Below the pieces are notes generated by a model. That model saw nothing but the letters and a program-made list of their open reading frames with translations, made no database searches and was not told the origin of the DNA. DNA of 59,615 nucleotides from an uncultured Bacteroidales bacterium (GTDB lineage Bacteria > Bacteroidota > Bacteroidia > Bacteroidales > UBA932). This document shows positions 30,948 through 59,615 of this stretch, one piece after another; positions within the stretch are counted from its first letter, which is position 1; every line of letters starts with the position of its first letter. The DNA is taken from assembly GCA_900318955.1 (NCBI GenBank), contig ONMJ01000021.1, positions 1-59,615 of the forward strand. The letters run 5' to 3'. The translations under genes were made by a program, and so were the position numbers.

Positions 30948-31092
30948 ATGGCGCAGGTGCGGAAAAATACCCGGGACCTGCACCATGGTGAATTATTAAC
31001 AAATTGAATATCAGAAACTTATCATTGAAAAGCGGCGCAGGTCATCACGAAAAAATCGCACCTGCGCCACAGGGGATGCGCACCTGCGCCAC
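30948..31092. repeat. GCGCAGGT compound repeat, copy A
   Basis: Inverted repeat 1 (ATGGCGCAGG at 30948-30957 with a partly decayed partner at 30976-30986) is followed by an A/T-rich core (about 30989-31033, starting TGAATTATTAACAAATTG). Inverted repeat 2 follows (GGCGCAGGT at 31034-31042 with ACCTGCGCC at 31060-31068), then one further CACCTGCGCCAC box at 31081-31092. Same architecture as copies B and C. It sits between two same-strand genes. Confidence 0.8.
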
Positions 31093-32825: not shown

Positions 32826-32970
32826 ATGGCGCAGGTGCGGAAAAATGCTGGTCTCCTGCGCCATGGTGAATTATTAACAAATTGAATATCAGAAACTTAT
32901 AATTGACAAGCGGCGCAGGTCGCCACGAAAAAATCGCACCTGCGCCACTCGGGCGGTCCACCTGCGCCAC
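32826..32970. repeat. GCGCAGGT compound repeat, copy B
   Basis: ATGGCGCAGG...CCTGCGCCAT (inverted repeat 1) is followed by an A/T core matching copy C exactly. GGCGCAGGT...ACCTGCGCC (inverted repeat 2) follows, then one extra CACCTGCGCCAC box after the linker CGGGCGGTC. It is followed at once by a hairpin-module repeat. Confidence 0.8.
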
Positions 32971-34994: not shown

Positions 34995-35161
34995 GTGGCG
35001 CAGGTGCGGAAAAATGCTGGTCTCCTGCGCCATGGTGAATTATTAACAAATTGAATATCAGAAACTTATAATTGACAAGCGGCGCAGGTCACCACGAAAA
35101 AATCGCACCTGCGCCACCCAGGCGGTCCACCTGCGCCATTCAGGCGGTCCACCTGCGCCAC
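34995..35161. repeat. GCGCAGGT compound repeat, copy C
   Basis: Same order as copy B: inverted repeat 1, A/T core (same sequence as B), inverted repeat 2. Then two extra CACCTGCGCCA boxes spaced 22 nt apart by AGGCGGTC linkers, so the number of terminal boxes varies between copies (1 in A, 1 in B, 2 in C). Confidence 0.8.
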
Positions 35162-54885: not shown

Positions 54886-54907
54886 ATCTGTTGGGTTTTA
54901 AAGTTGA

Positions 54908-55561
54908 TCAATGGGTGTGGGAATTAATGGCTTCAATGGCGGCGTTTATGTCCGAAACGTCAACATACTGTGAAGGATCGGGCTGATTGGCAACCCATTG
55001 GACGGAATAGGCGCCATAAGGAGAACTGATAAATTTCCTGATATTTATATTGCTTCCCGTGATTAGCTGTTTGGCCGTTTCGTTATTGATGGCTTTGTCG
55101 AAACGGTTGTTCCGGTCCTCCAGATGGCGATTCATGCTGGAAGCGATGGCTCCGCAAGTGTCATAGGCACGGATGATTTTCATTGAAAGATCTTTGTCTC
55201 CGATTTTCTGGAAAAGGGATGAACTTTTCAGAAGTTCCAGTGCATCGCTGCTGACCGAAATGGCCGCATCGGCGAAAAGAAGATTTCCATTATAGCTGAT
55301 GGAATCCTCCGGACATTTTTTTAGCGAAAACCGGTTGTCGAGGAAGAAATCAGCTGCTTTTTTTTCTTGACGAAGATAGTCTGACATCACATTGATGTCC
55401 TCAATATTCGCCAATAGCTCCGTCCTTACCAGATCCAGAGCAGAGGCGACCTCTTTACTTTCATGAATGCGGTCGATTTTCCCCTGGACGGCAAAAGTAA
55501 TGACTATGCCGAGGACAACGGAAATCATGTTGCTGAAAAAATCAATTATCTTGTCTTTCAT
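54908..55561 (-). CDS. Membrane-anchored hypothetical protein
   Basis: 217 aa. One N-terminal membrane segment (FSNMISVVLGIVITFAVQG), then a soluble mostly helical domain (SALDLVRTELLANIEDINVM, IISAYDTCGAI-like helices, HLEDRNNRFDKAINNE). This fits the DUF6090-like Bacteroidota pattern of short membrane-anchored proteins, but the assignment is weak. Probably cotranscribed with the small gene and the GDPD gene downstream. Confidence 0.65.
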   Translation of the reverse strand: MKDKIIDFFSNMISVVLGIVITFAVQGKIDRIHESKEVASALDLVRTELLANIEDINVMSDYLRQEKKAADFFLDNRFSLKKCPEDSISYNGNLLFADAAISVSSDALELLKSSSLFQKIGDKDLSMKIIRAYDTCGAIASSMNRHLEDRNNRFDKAINNETAKQLITGSNINIRKFISSPYGAYSVQWVANQPDPSQYVDVSDINAAIEAINSHTH

Positions 55562-55634
55562 AAGGAGTGCTTTTATGGCTTAGGCATTAAAGATAGTAAA
55601 TAATTCTGGCAATAAGTAATTATCTCCACGTCTC

Positions 55635-56639
55635 TTATGGTTCAGAGAGAATACGAATTATCTCATCGACAGACCATTTTACTTCTTTCAGGGGGAACAG
55701 AGGAAATTCATGGACCATTTCAGGAGCGACATAGGTAAAGACATCGACACCGCTGTCGCGAAGTTTTTTATCGAATAAGAGAATGTCCGGATAAAAAATT
55801 TCATGGGTCCCGACGAATATCCTGACATTCTTCATTACCGAAACGTCTCCTCGCAAAGGGCTGATTTGCCACTCCCATAATTTGCTGTTATCCGGCACCT
55901 TTTCAAGAATGGCGGAATAATCCTCTCCTGCCCAGGCGATGGCTGCCATGAATGCGTTTTTCGGTAGCATAGGATCAACTTTTTCTATCTCAGAAATGCT
56001 GCTATTGGTCATTGTCGCATCTACCCACGGAGAGAGCAAAATGGTCTTGTATGGCTGCGGAAGGCCTTTTTTTGCAAAATCCTGACAGAGTGCCGCGGCT
56101 AAGCCGCCCCCGGCGGAGTCTCCGACCAGTATGATATTATCAGCGCCGTATTTTGTCAAAAGATCTCTATATAGAGCATCCAGGAGGATAAAGGTCTCTA
56201 TATAAGTGTGGACAGGGGCTGTTGGATATGAAGCCAGAAAGACGGTTCTTCCTGAGCCGAGCGCAATCTTGTCTGCGAATCTCCAATGTGGAGACATGGC
56301 CTTTTCGACATATCCGCCTCCGGGGAGATACAGAACTACCTTGGAGGACTCTTCTCCGATCTGGAAAAGCTGCATGGAATAGTCGCCAGCCATGAAAACG
56401 GATTCCTTTACAATAGATTTAAGCTTCGGAGGGGAGATGGACTTCGAGTCTTTGGAGATAAGCTTTCTGATGTATTTTTGATAGGCTTTGTCGTTTTTCA
56501 GATATTTCTTGAAGCTTACTGTATACTGAATAATCTTCTCAGTAATGCCCATTAGAGCTGTTTTGTGCTCCGGAGGGGAAACCTGAGTCTCGCTTTGAGG
56601 GACGGCGAGAAGAAAAATACAGATAATCAAACTTAACAT
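55635..56639 (-). CDS. Secreted alpha/beta hydrolase (HSL-like)
   Basis: 334 aa with a short leader (LIICIFLLAVPQSE). Oxyanion YLPGGGYVEKA (the usual HGGG His is Pro here), nucleophile VGDSAGGGLAA, and a C-terminal VHEFPLFP that probably carries the catalytic His. HSL/BD-FAE-type esterases use such motifs. Substrate unknown. Divergent from the metallophosphoesterase gene. Confidence 0.82.
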   Translation of the reverse strand: MLSLIICIFLLAVPQSETQVSPPEHKTALMGITEKIIQYTVSFKKYLKNDKAYQKYIRKLISKDSKSISPPKLKSIVKESVFMAGDYSMQLFQIGEESSKVVLYLPGGGYVEKAMSPHWRFADKIALGSGRTVFLASYPTAPVHTYIETFILLDALYRDLLTKYGADNIILVGDSAGGGLAAALCQDFAKKGLPQPYKTILLSPWVDATMTNSSISEIEKVDPMLPKNAFMAAIAWAGEDYSAILEKVPDNSKLWEWQISPLRGDVSVMKNVRIFVGTHEIFYPDILLFDKKLRDSGVDVFTYVAPEMVHEFPLFPLKEVKWSVDEIIRILSEP

Positions 56640-56670
56640 ATTGCAAATTTAATTATTATCTTTGAATGTT

Positions 56671-57804
56671 ATGAAAAGAAGAGAATTTATAGGTCTATCG
56701 GCCGCAGGAGTGCTCGGACTTTGCCTGGAGGATAAATTGACAGTAGCAGAGGCGTGCTCAAAAAGAGGCAGCGGAGATTATTCCGTTGTAATACTTGGCG
56801 ACACCCATTTTGACACGGAGCCGGCAAGCGTGTATCATTCCAATTACAACGAAAAGGTAGAGTGGCTCAACCGCGTCCAGCGGGCAGAGTTCGCAAGAAA
56901 CGGAGAGATGTGGAGGGAACGCTGCCCGAAGCTTCTCAAACGCGCGGCTTGCCTGATTTCTGAAGACACCAAAATGGCCTTCCAGATGGGAGACCTTATC
57001 CAGGGAGACTGCGGGAGCGGCGAGGTCCATAAAAAGATGCTTACCGATGTCATGGACAGTTTCAAATCCGAGTTCGGAGGCCTTCCTTTCGTGACGGTCG
57101 TCGGAAACCATGATATCAGGGGAGTGGACGCCAAGGCGGCTTATCATGAGATGATGCCTAAAAGAATGTCCGCGGAGCTAGGAAAGGAGATTACAAAGAC
57201 AACCTTCGATTTCAATATCGGAAATGACGCTTTTATCGTGATTGATTTCAACCATCCCGATGATGACGAGGTCGAGAAGCTCCTTAAAGATACCAAGGGC
57301 GCAAGGCATACATTTGTCATCGTCCATGGTCCTCTCTTCCCTTATGACGCCAATAGCTGCAGATGGTTCTATCATGGAAAGGACACGCCGGAGCATACCG
57401 AGGCGAGGCTTCATTTCCGCAGGGAATTCGCCCGCCGAAATGTTATCGCCCTCTGCGGCCATACCCACAAGACAGAGTTTGCCGACTGGTGGGGAGATGG
57501 AGGCAGGATTACCCAGATGACGATGAATAGCGTCTGGGCTAAGCCGGAATTTGGAAAATACGAGGTTGAGGCTCAAGGTGCCGCCGAGTATGGGGAGATC
57601 AGAAAGAGGAATCCGTTCATGGATAACGGCGACCCGATAAAGGACGAGACGGCAATATTTGACGAATACCGTTCCGGCCTGCGGTCCTACACATGGTCCA
57701 GGGCCGCCGGCTCATACAAACTCCTTGTGTCCCGAAAACACGTCTACGTCGACTTCTACGCCGGCGACTCCACCTTCCTCAGCCAACGGTTTGTCCTAAG
57801 GTAA
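56671..57804 (+). CDS. Tat-exported metallophosphoesterase
   Basis: 377 aa from the ATG at 56671 (MKRREFIGLSAAGVLGLC), a twin-arginine signal. Calcineurin-type motifs: ILGDTHFD, QMGDLIQGD, VVGNHDIRG, VHGPLFP and LCGHTHKT supply the two-metal site. Like many Bacteroidetes Tat phosphatases it has a long C-terminal region (AVWAKPEF-like, RSGLRSYTW). Substrate unknown. A TATCTTTG lies at 56657-56664. Confidence 0.9.
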   Translation: MKRREFIGLSAAGVLGLCLEDKLTVAEACSKRGSGDYSVVILGDTHFDTEPASVYHSNYNEKVEWLNRVQRAEFARNGEMWRERCPKLLKRAACLISEDTKMAFQMGDLIQGDCGSGEVHKKMLTDVMDSFKSEFGGLPFVTVVGNHDIRGVDAKAAYHEMMPKRMSAELGKEITKTTFDFNIGNDAFIVIDFNHPDDDEVEKLLKDTKGARHTFVIVHGPLFPYDANSCRWFYHGKDTPEHTEARLHFRREFARRNVIALCGHTHKTEFADWWGDGGRITQMTMNSVWAKPEFGKYEVEAQGAAEYGEIRKRNPFMDNGDPIKDETAIFDEYRSGLRSYTWSRAAGSYKLLVSRKHVYVDFYAGDSTFLSQRFVLR

Positions 57805-58000
57805 AAGTAAACCCCTTCCTCGCCAGTCCTTACTACCACCGTCTTAATATAAACACCTTCTCCCCGTCCTGGCAACCACACATTACTTCGTGCTGTCAGC
57901 CTGTTTCGCTCTGCTAGCCTATTTTGCTCTGCCGGAGGTGACCAAACAATCGACCGATGTCGGTTCAATCTCGATTTAGCCTCCCGTTTTTGCCTGATAT
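57805..58000. other. Intergenic DNA before the REP array
   Basis: Contains a short tandem near-repeat CTGTCAGCCTGTTTCGCTCT / CTGCTAGCCTATTTTGCTCT at about 57893-57935. No gene. Confidence 0.4.
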
Positions 58001-58142
58001 CGTGGGGTTATTGTCCTTCCCGTCCCGTTTACCCCACGTTTTGGCGTGTATTTGTGGGATTATTGGACCTTCGGGACCGTTTACCCCACGAATTGATGGG
58101 TTTTCGTGGGATTATTGGACCTTCGGGTCCGTTTACCCCACG
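58001..58142 (+). repeat. REP-like palindrome array, left side (3 units)
   Basis: 38-nt palindromes begin at 58001, 58053 and 58105, exactly 52 nt apart. The best unit pairs CGTGGG with CCCACG and GGACC with GGTCC around a C(TTCG)G loop, with an internal ATTATT / GTTTAC mismatch as in classical REPs. Linkers are 14 nt (such as TTTTGGCGTGTATT). A decayed fourth unit starts near 58157. Confidence 0.88.
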
Positions 58143-58379
58143 TTTCGCCAGATATTTGCGGGACAATTCGTCATCACGGATTAATGTGGTTTTTTTTGTT
58201 TGGTTATGTTGATTTAGTAAGGTTAGATTGTGCCCTGTCTGGTGAAAGGGAAGCGATTTTTCTGCTTTTTTTGAGCAAAGTGGCCGACGAAAATGGCCAT
58301 AGACATGCGTGAAACGGCGTTTTTTCAATTAAAGGTGTGATAATTTTTTTAAACGGATAAGTTCTTCAATCTTTGCGGT

Positions 58380-59321
58380 ATGGAAAAGAAGAGAAGAAAA
58401 AAGAAAGATTGTGATTCCTTGGGTATGGGGTATTATCACTTTTGCACGGATGGGCTTAAGGCTGGATGCCTTTTTTATAATCAAAGTCAATATGCCTTCG
58501 GGATGACATTGATTGCGACAATAACCCTCCTTTTCAATATCAAGATATATGCATTTGTTCTAATGCCTAATCATATACATATTATCTTAAGCGGGAAAGG
58601 AGAGGATTGCTATCAGGCATTTAAATATTTGAAGCGTAGAATCTCTGCGCGCCTTGTAAAGGATGGGTATCCGCCGCTGCCGGAACAATATGATTTTAAG
58701 CTGGTTCCGATTGATAATATGAACCAGATGAAAAGCAATATCATATACGTTGTCAGGAATCCTTATGAAAAGGGGCTCTCTCTTCCAGGAGGATATCCCT
58801 GGGGTTCTGGTTACTTGTATTATTCGACGATGCATAGTTTCATTGATGGAGTTCCGGCAGACCGTCTTTCGGCCAGAGCGATAGAGCAAATGACAGGGAG
58901 GCGACTTAAGTTTCCTAATACATGGAAATATCACCAAGTGTTAGGGATACTACCATCTTCTTTTGTGGACATAAGTATGGTAAAGCGTCTTTTTCATGGC
59001 CACAAGGAGTATATGACCTCAATCATCAAGGACTATGAGTCTTTAGTGAATATCGCGGACAGTCTTGAAGAGGATCTGCCGGAGTTTGATTTCAAGGAGA
59101 TAAGGGACATTGTAATAAAGGTTTCCAATGAAATGTTCAAGGGTAAAGACGTCAATACAATGAGTACAGAAGAAAAATACCGACTAGCCGCACACTTGTA
59201 TGAAAAATACCGTTTAAGTATAGACGCCATAGCCAAAGTTACATCCATGACCCCATCGCTTTTGAAACAAGTACTTAGGTCAAAAGATTATGGAATAAAA
59301 GGCTTCGTCGAGCCCCAATAA
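58380..59321 (+). CDS. REP-associated tyrosine transposase (Y1/HUH, RAYT-like)
   Basis: 313 aa single-strand transposase of the Y1_Tnp/TnpA-REP family. HUH is in VLMPNHIHIILSG (H65, H67). The likely nucleophile is Tyr123 in NIIYVVRNPYEKG, in the place where RAYTs have YxxxNP. A GGYPWGSGYLYYS block follows, matching the family's YpWSSy. The C-terminus (YEKYRLSIDAIAKVTSMTPS) is an HTH-like domain. N-terminus KKRRKKK is basic. No terminal repeats of an IS; instead inverted REP arrays flank it at both ends. The ATG is preceded only by A/T-rich DNA. Confidence 0.88.
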   Translation: MEKKRRKKKDCDSLGMGYYHFCTDGLKAGCLFYNQSQYAFGMTLIATITLLFNIKIYAFVLMPNHIHIILSGKGEDCYQAFKYLKRRISARLVKDGYPPLPEQYDFKLVPIDNMNQMKSNIIYVVRNPYEKGLSLPGGYPWGSGYLYYSTMHSFIDGVPADRLSARAIEQMTGRRLKFPNTWKYHQVLGILPSSFVDISMVKRLFHGHKEYMTSIIKDYESLVNIADSLEEDLPEFDFKEIRDIVIKVSNEMFKGKDVNTMSTEEKYRLAAHLYEKYRLSIDAIAKVTSMTPSLLKQVLRSKDYGIKGFVEPQ

Positions 59322-59330
59322 ATCCAAAGA

Positions 59331-59521
59331 TCCCACGAAAACCCATCAATTCGTGTGGTAAACAGCCCGGAAGTACAAAAACCCCACGAAAACACGTCAA
59401 ATCGCGGGGTAAACGGACCCGGAAGGACAAAAGCCCCACGAAAACACGCCAAATAGTGGGGCAAACGGACCCGATGGTCCAATAATCCCACGAAAACACG
59501 TCAAATCGTGGGGTAATGTCG
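59331..59521 (-). repeat. REP-like palindrome array, right side, inverted
   Basis: The same palindrome, reversed. A degenerate unit ends at 59337; clear units are at 59352-59388, 59403-59440 and 59455-59492, and a partial one begins at 59507. Period is 51-52 nt with 14-nt linkers (AAAACACGTCAAAT). In order the linker reads as the complement of the left-side linkers. 59522-59615 holds nothing I recognise. Confidence 0.88.
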
Positions 59522-59615
59522 TTTCCTGATTTTGGTTGACTCGGGTTTATAGATTATTACTGGTAAAAGTTGACCATTCGTCGTTATCCCTAAGATGGGT
59601 TTACCATCCGAGTCT

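Follow-up and report, generated by a model that had tools for sequence, protein, structure and literature searches.

Results

A transposase gene between two inverted arrays of hairpin units

We analyzed a 59,615-nucleotide (nt) stretch of DNA (contig ONMJ01000021.1 of assembly GCA_900318955.1; the whole stretch is referred to as the window) from an uncultured Bacteroidales bacterium. Near one end of the window is a gene for a Y1 transposase of the HUH type, with an array of tandem hairpin units on each side. The features are as follows.

57969..58176, plus strand: left array, four 52-nt hairpin units (starting at 57969, 58021, 58073 and 58125) with cores at 57987, 58039, 58091 and 58143; the outer units are degenerate
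58091..58104, plus strand: variant core AATTGATGGGTTTT, with its mirror image at 59338-59351 on the right side
58380..59321, plus strand: gene for the HUH Y1 transposase, RAYT/TnpA-REP-like; an open reading frame of 313 amino acids (aa)
58572..58580, plus strand: codons of the HUH motif H65-I-H67 (NHIH); H65 and H67 do not vary across the window protein and 51 homologs
58746..58748, plus strand: codon of Y123 (YVVRNP), presumed from its family to be the catalytic tyrosine; unvarying across the window protein and 51 homologs
59091..59279, plus strand: C-terminal helical domain (residues 238-300), probably helix-turn-helix (HTH)
59318..59524, minus strand: right array, four hairpin units (59473-59524, 59421-59472, 59369-59420 and 59318-59369) in the orientation opposite to the left array, with the unit nearest the gene overlapping the stop codon
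59517..59615, plus strand: 99-nt end of a repeat that adjoins the right array; the identical sequence ends contig C48 of the same genome and contig C93 of genome G300; in our reading it is like an insertion sequence (IS) and outside the system

The original prediction, made from the letters of this DNA, described the locus as having the architecture of a REPtron, in which a transposase gene lies between palindromes of its own kind and further copies are found elsewhere in the genome. The predicted Y1/HUH transposase with an intact HxH motif and tyrosine was borne out (H65, H67 and Y123). The protein has a TnpA-REP-like fold, as expected of RAYT/TnpA-REP proteins, and matches the Y1_Tnp profile. 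The HUH histidines of that group and its presumed catalytic tyrosine with Y...NP are present, and these three residues are the same in all 52 sequences. The structural match of the C-terminal helical domain is weak. None of 44 family members had a PADLOC match at 0.01, and a sequence search of the Protein Data Bank with the family profile gave no matches at 0.01. Judging from sequence, the window enzyme is probably a cutter of single-stranded DNA, and the flanking hairpins are probably its own targets.

We found four units by core in each array. Cores in the right array start at 59506, 59454, 59402 and 59351 on the minus strand. Some of the outer units of the two arrays are degenerate. The variant core AATTGATGGGTTTT adjoins the gene on the right and is one unit off on the left. 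The earlier count of three units on the left and about four on the right was a count of palindromes shifted by half a unit. Copies are 52 and 52 nt apart on the left and 51, 52 and 52 nt apart on the right, so a period of exactly 52 nt, as first proposed, holds for most steps but not for one step on the right. At a lag of 52 nt the self-match score was 65 on each side, compared to at most 16 in 84 shuffles of downstream flanks and 11 in the body of the gene. The arrays are in opposite orientation, as predicted: the upstream flank scored 142 against the reverse complement of the downstream flank and 24 in direct orientation, and cross-controls with other loci had a mean of 20.6 and a maximum of 27. 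As in REPtrons, inverted palindromic repeats that belong with the gene lie on both sides of it. Within each array the cores share one orientation, and the alternation typical of bacterial interspersed mosaic elements (BIMEs) and REPINs is not seen. We looked for the GT[AG]G foot of the hairpin; the left array has three occurrences of GTGG and the right array has four of CCAC.

We rejected a CRISPR-like reading: in the 20 arrays inspected the arms repeat and no variable spacers were seen. The window ends 91 nt beyond the right array. The 99-nt sequence meets an array unit at the same point in the window and on C48, as if an IS favored these palindromes. No empty site was found for the window locus; with positions 54900-59615 as query, G300 matched only by the 99-nt end and array units.

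The stability of the folds is modest: four 52-nt units had z-scores between -1.0 and -1.9, two 38-nt palindromes had -0.9 and -3.1, and the whole arrays had -2.1 and -3.1. Both readings of the hairpin (arm-core-arm and TTCG palindrome) can fold. The two alternative foldings pointed out in the original prediction do exist, but because tandem repetition of a palindrome always creates another dyad, offset by half a period, they come from geometry and are no independent feature. It is conceivable that the arrays act as RNA (terminators, small RNA sponges or guides) and that the gene merely adjoins them. The alternative folds (computed as DNA) and the position of arrays in untranslated flanks fit this idea. 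Arrays are also found on either side of the gene, in either orientation, and at distant places, which argues against it, and we regard a role as RNA as very improbable.

The repeating unit is a hairpin around a shared core

We compared units from 93 arrays scoring at least 17. The downstream arrays of loci L055, L056 and L150 fall outside this unit set and outside the orientation, array-end, arm-pairing, unit-identity, held-out and GT[AG]G sets described below. Across 56 non-redundant units there is a shared core, approximately TTTTnGGCCnTTTT; hairpin sequences are otherwise specific to the locus. Expectation-maximization with these 56 units found a 20-nt motif near cACG.TtTgGGcCgtTTTtG with 12.8 bits, compared to 6.9-7.5 bits for four shuffled sets run with fewer restarts. 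In a held-out test with five splits, 19-23 of 28 units exceeded 95% of their own shuffles.

The unit consists of imperfect arms of about 18 nt around a 14-nt core, repeated in one orientation every 52 nt. Arms flanking the core paired 49% in the right register and 23-28% when slid by 1-2 nt; arm pairing was 0.59, compared to 0.41 with the arms of other units. For arrays that scored at least 22 and had a clear strand, 5' ends were at phases 36-51 in 40 of 58 and 3' ends at phases 23-40 in 45 of 58. Few ended inside the core (phases 4-17; 3 of the 58 at the 5' end and 4 at the 3' end). This result is supportive and not decisive, because ends are hard to call in the best conserved part. Since the core is conserved between loci and array ends avoid it, the unit is best regarded as a hairpin whose 14-nt loop is the core. 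The original prediction had taken a 38-nt palindrome as the unit and these 14 nt as a linker. It is better to set the phase of the unit by this "linker", where the sequence shared between loci is found. The TTCG palindrome is best seen as the junction between neighboring units, a reading shifted by half a period. Its proposed C(TTCG)G tip was exact in two of the six full tips read and not in the other four.

The period is shared by relatives of the transposase

A homolog of the transposase (E<=0.001) was found in 31 of 36 genomes of the same genus; none was found in 24 other families of the order, each represented by one genome. In a collection of named genomes, 77 loci were found. The 51 matches that spanned at least ~290 residues of the query were all in metagenome-assembled genomes titled Bacteroidales or Bacteroidia, many of them titled as from rumen, omasum or reticulum. 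Homologs from genomes of the same genus were the best-scoring 60 of those listed; L159 and the partial matches L160-L185 are outside the analyzed set. In viral contigs, none of 94 pattern matches encoded a relative.

We compared the flanks of these genes in two sets that have five loci in common. In the wide family (62 loci, including the window and C32, a contig of the same genome), arrays at a score of at least 17 were present in 34, and the period was 50-53 nt, or double that, in 24. In the closer set (50 loci), 24 of the 50 upstream flanks and 34 of the 49 downstream ones had a lag of 50-53 nt at a score of at least 18, compared to 1 of 46 and 2 of 42 far-flank controls (their positions are offset by up to 123 nt from the gene ends used in the final counts). 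L133, L136, L138, L142 and L148 duplicate L049-L053; they are counted in this tally and omitted from the unit, recA-place and unit-identity comparisons. The period is a trait of the family, and many relatives have a similar arrangement with different hairpin sequences.

Arrays on both sides of the gene were present at 32 loci, 11 of which had an unclear strand. Of the remaining 21, 18 had direct arrays and 3 had inverted arrays (the window, L143 and L067). The inverted pair of the window is the minority form.

The arrays could be neutral minisatellites without relation to the gene. Ten loci of the wide family have other periods only, as might be expected of minisatellites. The period is rare in far flanks, none of the 62 gene bodies reaches a score of 22 at any lag, the core is shared, and the similarity of units tracks that of the proteins (see below), all of which speak against this idea and leave it little probability. 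The periods at those ten loci are 77 nt in L060, 74 in L065, 39 in L079, 84 in L091, 75 in L094, 64 in L096, 83 in L097, 85 in L100, 46 in L105 and 44 in C32 (L017).

A length of 52 nt is about five turns of the DNA helix. It is therefore worth considering that the arrays are double-stranded operator or anchoring sites for the C-terminal domain, placed on one face of the helix for autoregulation or DNA organization, with the hairpins as by-products of dyad symmetry. The best lags in the closer set, almost only 51-53 nt, are in keeping with such sites, as are the helical nature of the C-terminal domain (a weak structural match) and the arrays flanking the gene. We think it unlikely: the arms match across a 14-nt core, a spacing that we judge unusual for an operator, arrays are also found far from the gene, and the periods of other homologs range from 39 to 85 nt.

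Units are dispersed in the genome in small numbers

A BLAST search with the window region found copies on other contigs of the same genome. With a covariance model built from 19 units we obtained 33 matches (E<=0.001), of which 24 lie beyond the window, in ten places on nine contigs. Eleven of the 19 units are from outside the window and match by construction, and 3 of the 24 outside matches duplicate a counted place on its opposite strand. The three strong matches on the minus strand of C21 did not contribute to the model. These dispersed copies are as expected of a REPtron, and the original prediction, which would have been undermined by absence of the unit elsewhere, stands on this point. 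Their abundance is not that of REPs (repetitive extragenic palindromes), which usually have more than 100 copies (PMC2817692).

Among 399 other genomes of the genus, we found the unit in one, G300 (E<=1e-5, with stricter filters that lose weak matches); a more sensitive run found it in none of 36 genomes of the genus at 0.001. G300 has only seven distant homologs of the transposase, the best 28% identical. In this one case, arrays are present without close relatives of the gene, which the original prediction had named as a finding that would count against it. The flanks of the G300 array are 97-98% identical to those of an array on C43 of the window's genome, and the array breaks off next to a long reading frame, which we take for a candidate ISL3-like transposase.

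In L012 and L187, two genomes have array-bearing DNA that is 97-98% identical and otherwise little matching DNA (two stretches searched). It is possible that this reflects transfer or a binning error.

We also observed a second dispersed palindromic family, REPIN-like, with doublets of GGCGCAGGT...ACCTGCGCC that start 84 nt apart and have A/T-rich loops. There are four in the window (about 911-1043, 30950-31090, 32828-32970 and 34997-35160) and others in L011 and L012, and the family also adjoins 52-nt arrays on C23 and C43.

Units diverge with the transposase, and the locus recurs behind recA

We found that the arrays diverge along with the protein. Mean unit identity was 0.86 for pairs of proteins at least 85% identical (10 pairs), 0.62 at 70-85% (10 pairs), and 0.42-0.46 below 70% (1437 pairs), for arrays scoring at least 20. 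In a Mantel test of unit against protein similarity, 0 of 1000 permutations reached the observed value. In these protein comparisons and those at the recA place, the window protein carried 44 residues beyond its stop.

The transposase-array locus is directly behind recA in several species (L053, L122, L135, L144, L146, L150, L153, L155 and L157). The neighbor in L153 is a 344-aa protein that is RecA by Pfam; at the other loci it was identified by reciprocal BLAST. The transposase gene of L157 is broken by a frameshift. At eight of these loci, RecA proteins are 90-99% identical and transposases 48-84% identical. Read by eye, the core-adjacent stem differs between species on both arms (AGTCACG/CGTGACT; TACCCTGG/TCAAGGTA; AAGCAG/CTGCTT; TTGACA/TGTCAA) and the tips are alike. 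A stem count with a demand on the core score gave 0.82 for own arms, 0.81 within a locus and 0.63 between loci; it covered 24 units from six of the nine loci (L053, L135 and L155 gave none), and the claim that stems change comes from the reading by eye. It is possible that the stems changed rapidly in situ or that the locus was replaced by a relative. L251, also behind recA, appeared by eye to have a short array of the local type followed by an array resembling that of L124 and L132, as if it had landed inside.

Some recA places lack the gene. Of the best 30 of 180 recA matches (200 genomes), 4 were followed by a transposase gene (in one case on the opposite strand), 3 had an array only, and 23 had neither; two of these 23 sites had only ~500 nt of sequence. 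We compared L248 (array only) to L150 (gene intact, 306 aa). Positions 1-70 of L248 correspond to 1-70 of the upstream side of L150 (98.6% identity), and positions 29-421 correspond to 41-433 of the downstream side (92.1%). The overlap, 29-70, is one hairpin unit. Therefore, the gene and the remaining upstream array are missing between equivalent points of two units. L248 has three stems that start 52 and 52 nt apart; that is, the phase is unbroken without the gene. L248 could represent loss or the state before arrival. On domestication, which the original prediction had raised, the evidence is divided: the locus is kept beside recA in several species, yet versions without the gene exist.

These findings bear on whether the locus is simply a mobile element like IS200, with ends that happen to be tandem repeats and with gene-less remnants as the arrays elsewhere. 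The Y1_Tnp match, the arrays that lack the gene (both in this genome and behind recA), and the direct flanking arrays at most called loci can all be accommodated in this way. IS200/IS605 elements are expected to have several near-identical copies per genome. In contrast, the genome has no second close copy of the transposase; the sole other match, on C32, is 22% identical. In addition, the same place is retained across species despite diverged transposases. We consider an ordinary IS200-like element doubtful.

Discussion

Our results indicate that the locus found in the window is real and more general than first seen. The best reading is that it is a variant of a REPtron with a phased hairpin array that co-diverges with the transposase. 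We think it somewhat probable that this is a REPtron-type system in which a HUH nuclease resembling RAYTs, extended by a helical and probably HTH domain at its C terminus, uses a phased hairpin array of its own type as single-stranded substrate.

The system resembles REPtrons with RAYT/TnpA-REP proteins from E. coli, Stenotrophomonas and Marinomonas in its HUH Y1 and Y...NP motifs, its TnpA-REP fold, and the palindromes of its own type that flank the gene and are found elsewhere (PMC8266576, PMC2817692). Unlike those systems, it has head-to-tail units at a fixed 52-nt period, few copies, an extra C-terminal domain, and conservation between loci in the 14-nt loop and not in a GTAG foot. REPs flanking the gene are inverted as a rule (PMC2817692), whereas here they are mostly direct. 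Thus, the REPtron architecture first proposed is supported by the fold and the dispersed units, but its inverted form is found at only 3 of 21 called loci. The palindromic units of BIMEs and REPINs are likewise thought to be moved by RAYTs, but they alternate in orientation (PMC2817692), and here there is one orientation per array.

Two subclasses of TnpA-Y1 are also similar. Subclass 2.6 is from Bacteroidetes and has NH[LIV]H motifs, "atypical secondary structures" without GT[AG]G, and copies elsewhere in the genome (PMC6006769). The original prediction that such systems are rarely described in Bacteroidota has to be qualified by these members already in print. In contrast to subclass 2.6 (median 179 aa, YIH[QN]NP), the window protein has 313 aa and YVVRNP, and the main text of that paper uses neither "tandem" nor "array". 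Subclass 2.1 (TIRYT) has long proteins, part of them with C-terminal domains of the HTH type (PMC6006769, PMC3733652). It was published without nearby REP-like sequences, in those sources, whereas arrays are prominent here; its terminal inverted repeats carry GGGG[AT][CG]A[CG] (PMC6006769). In the literature, which was incompletely covered, we found no description of a comparable family of fixed-period hairpin arrays.

Several results weigh against a REPtron-type system. The window protein scores 28.2 bits with the NCBIfam RAYT model NF047646 (cut-off of 80), and among 52 family members no more than 22 match this model and 10 match Y1_Tnp (both at E<=0.001). In the wide family, 28 of 62 loci lack an array at a score of 17, and 10 others have different periods only. 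Only 29 of 93 array consensus units are above the 99% shuffled level for palindromy. For the genome's own 19 units, stem pairing is 86.8% compared to 86.5% in shuffles, and 39 of 500 shuffles reached the covariation score of 0.119 (0.097 in shuffles). We saw no enrichment of the canonical GT[AG]G guide in the family, where 22 of 56 units have it, compared to 56% in shuffles. An A-rich variant of the core emerged in two of the five held-out splits and the core strand is weakly marked, so orientation calls carry error. Lastly, ordinary recombination between direct repeats, or a state before arrival, could account for the site without the gene.

If the system is of the REPtron type, then the enzyme would bind the arms on single-stranded DNA, probably the lagging-strand template, Y123 would cut at or near the core, and the enzyme would rejoin equivalent points of two units. 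Rejoining in this way could delete, add or release whole units and keep arrays homogeneous. It could also allow the 52-nt phase to outlive loss of the gene and arrays to be seeded elsewhere.

A bolder and rather unlikely notion is that the family makes up a single-strand recognition code: HUH nucleases throughout the genus, each with a private array in which the stems to the left and right of the gene change together. The array would mark self or sequester the enzyme. If so, enzymes and arrays that diverge between species would become mutually blind, like self/non-self systems in defense or selfish elements, and the regular phase and the neighborhood of recA would link the array to replication or repair.

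This family can help to address the role of RAYTs in the host and the basis on which they choose hairpins. It supplies natural pairs of enzyme and array with fixed spacing and a candidate common core apart from variable arms, along with orthologous loci with altered stems and a gene-less sister site. Swaps of specificity and cleavage are directly testable.
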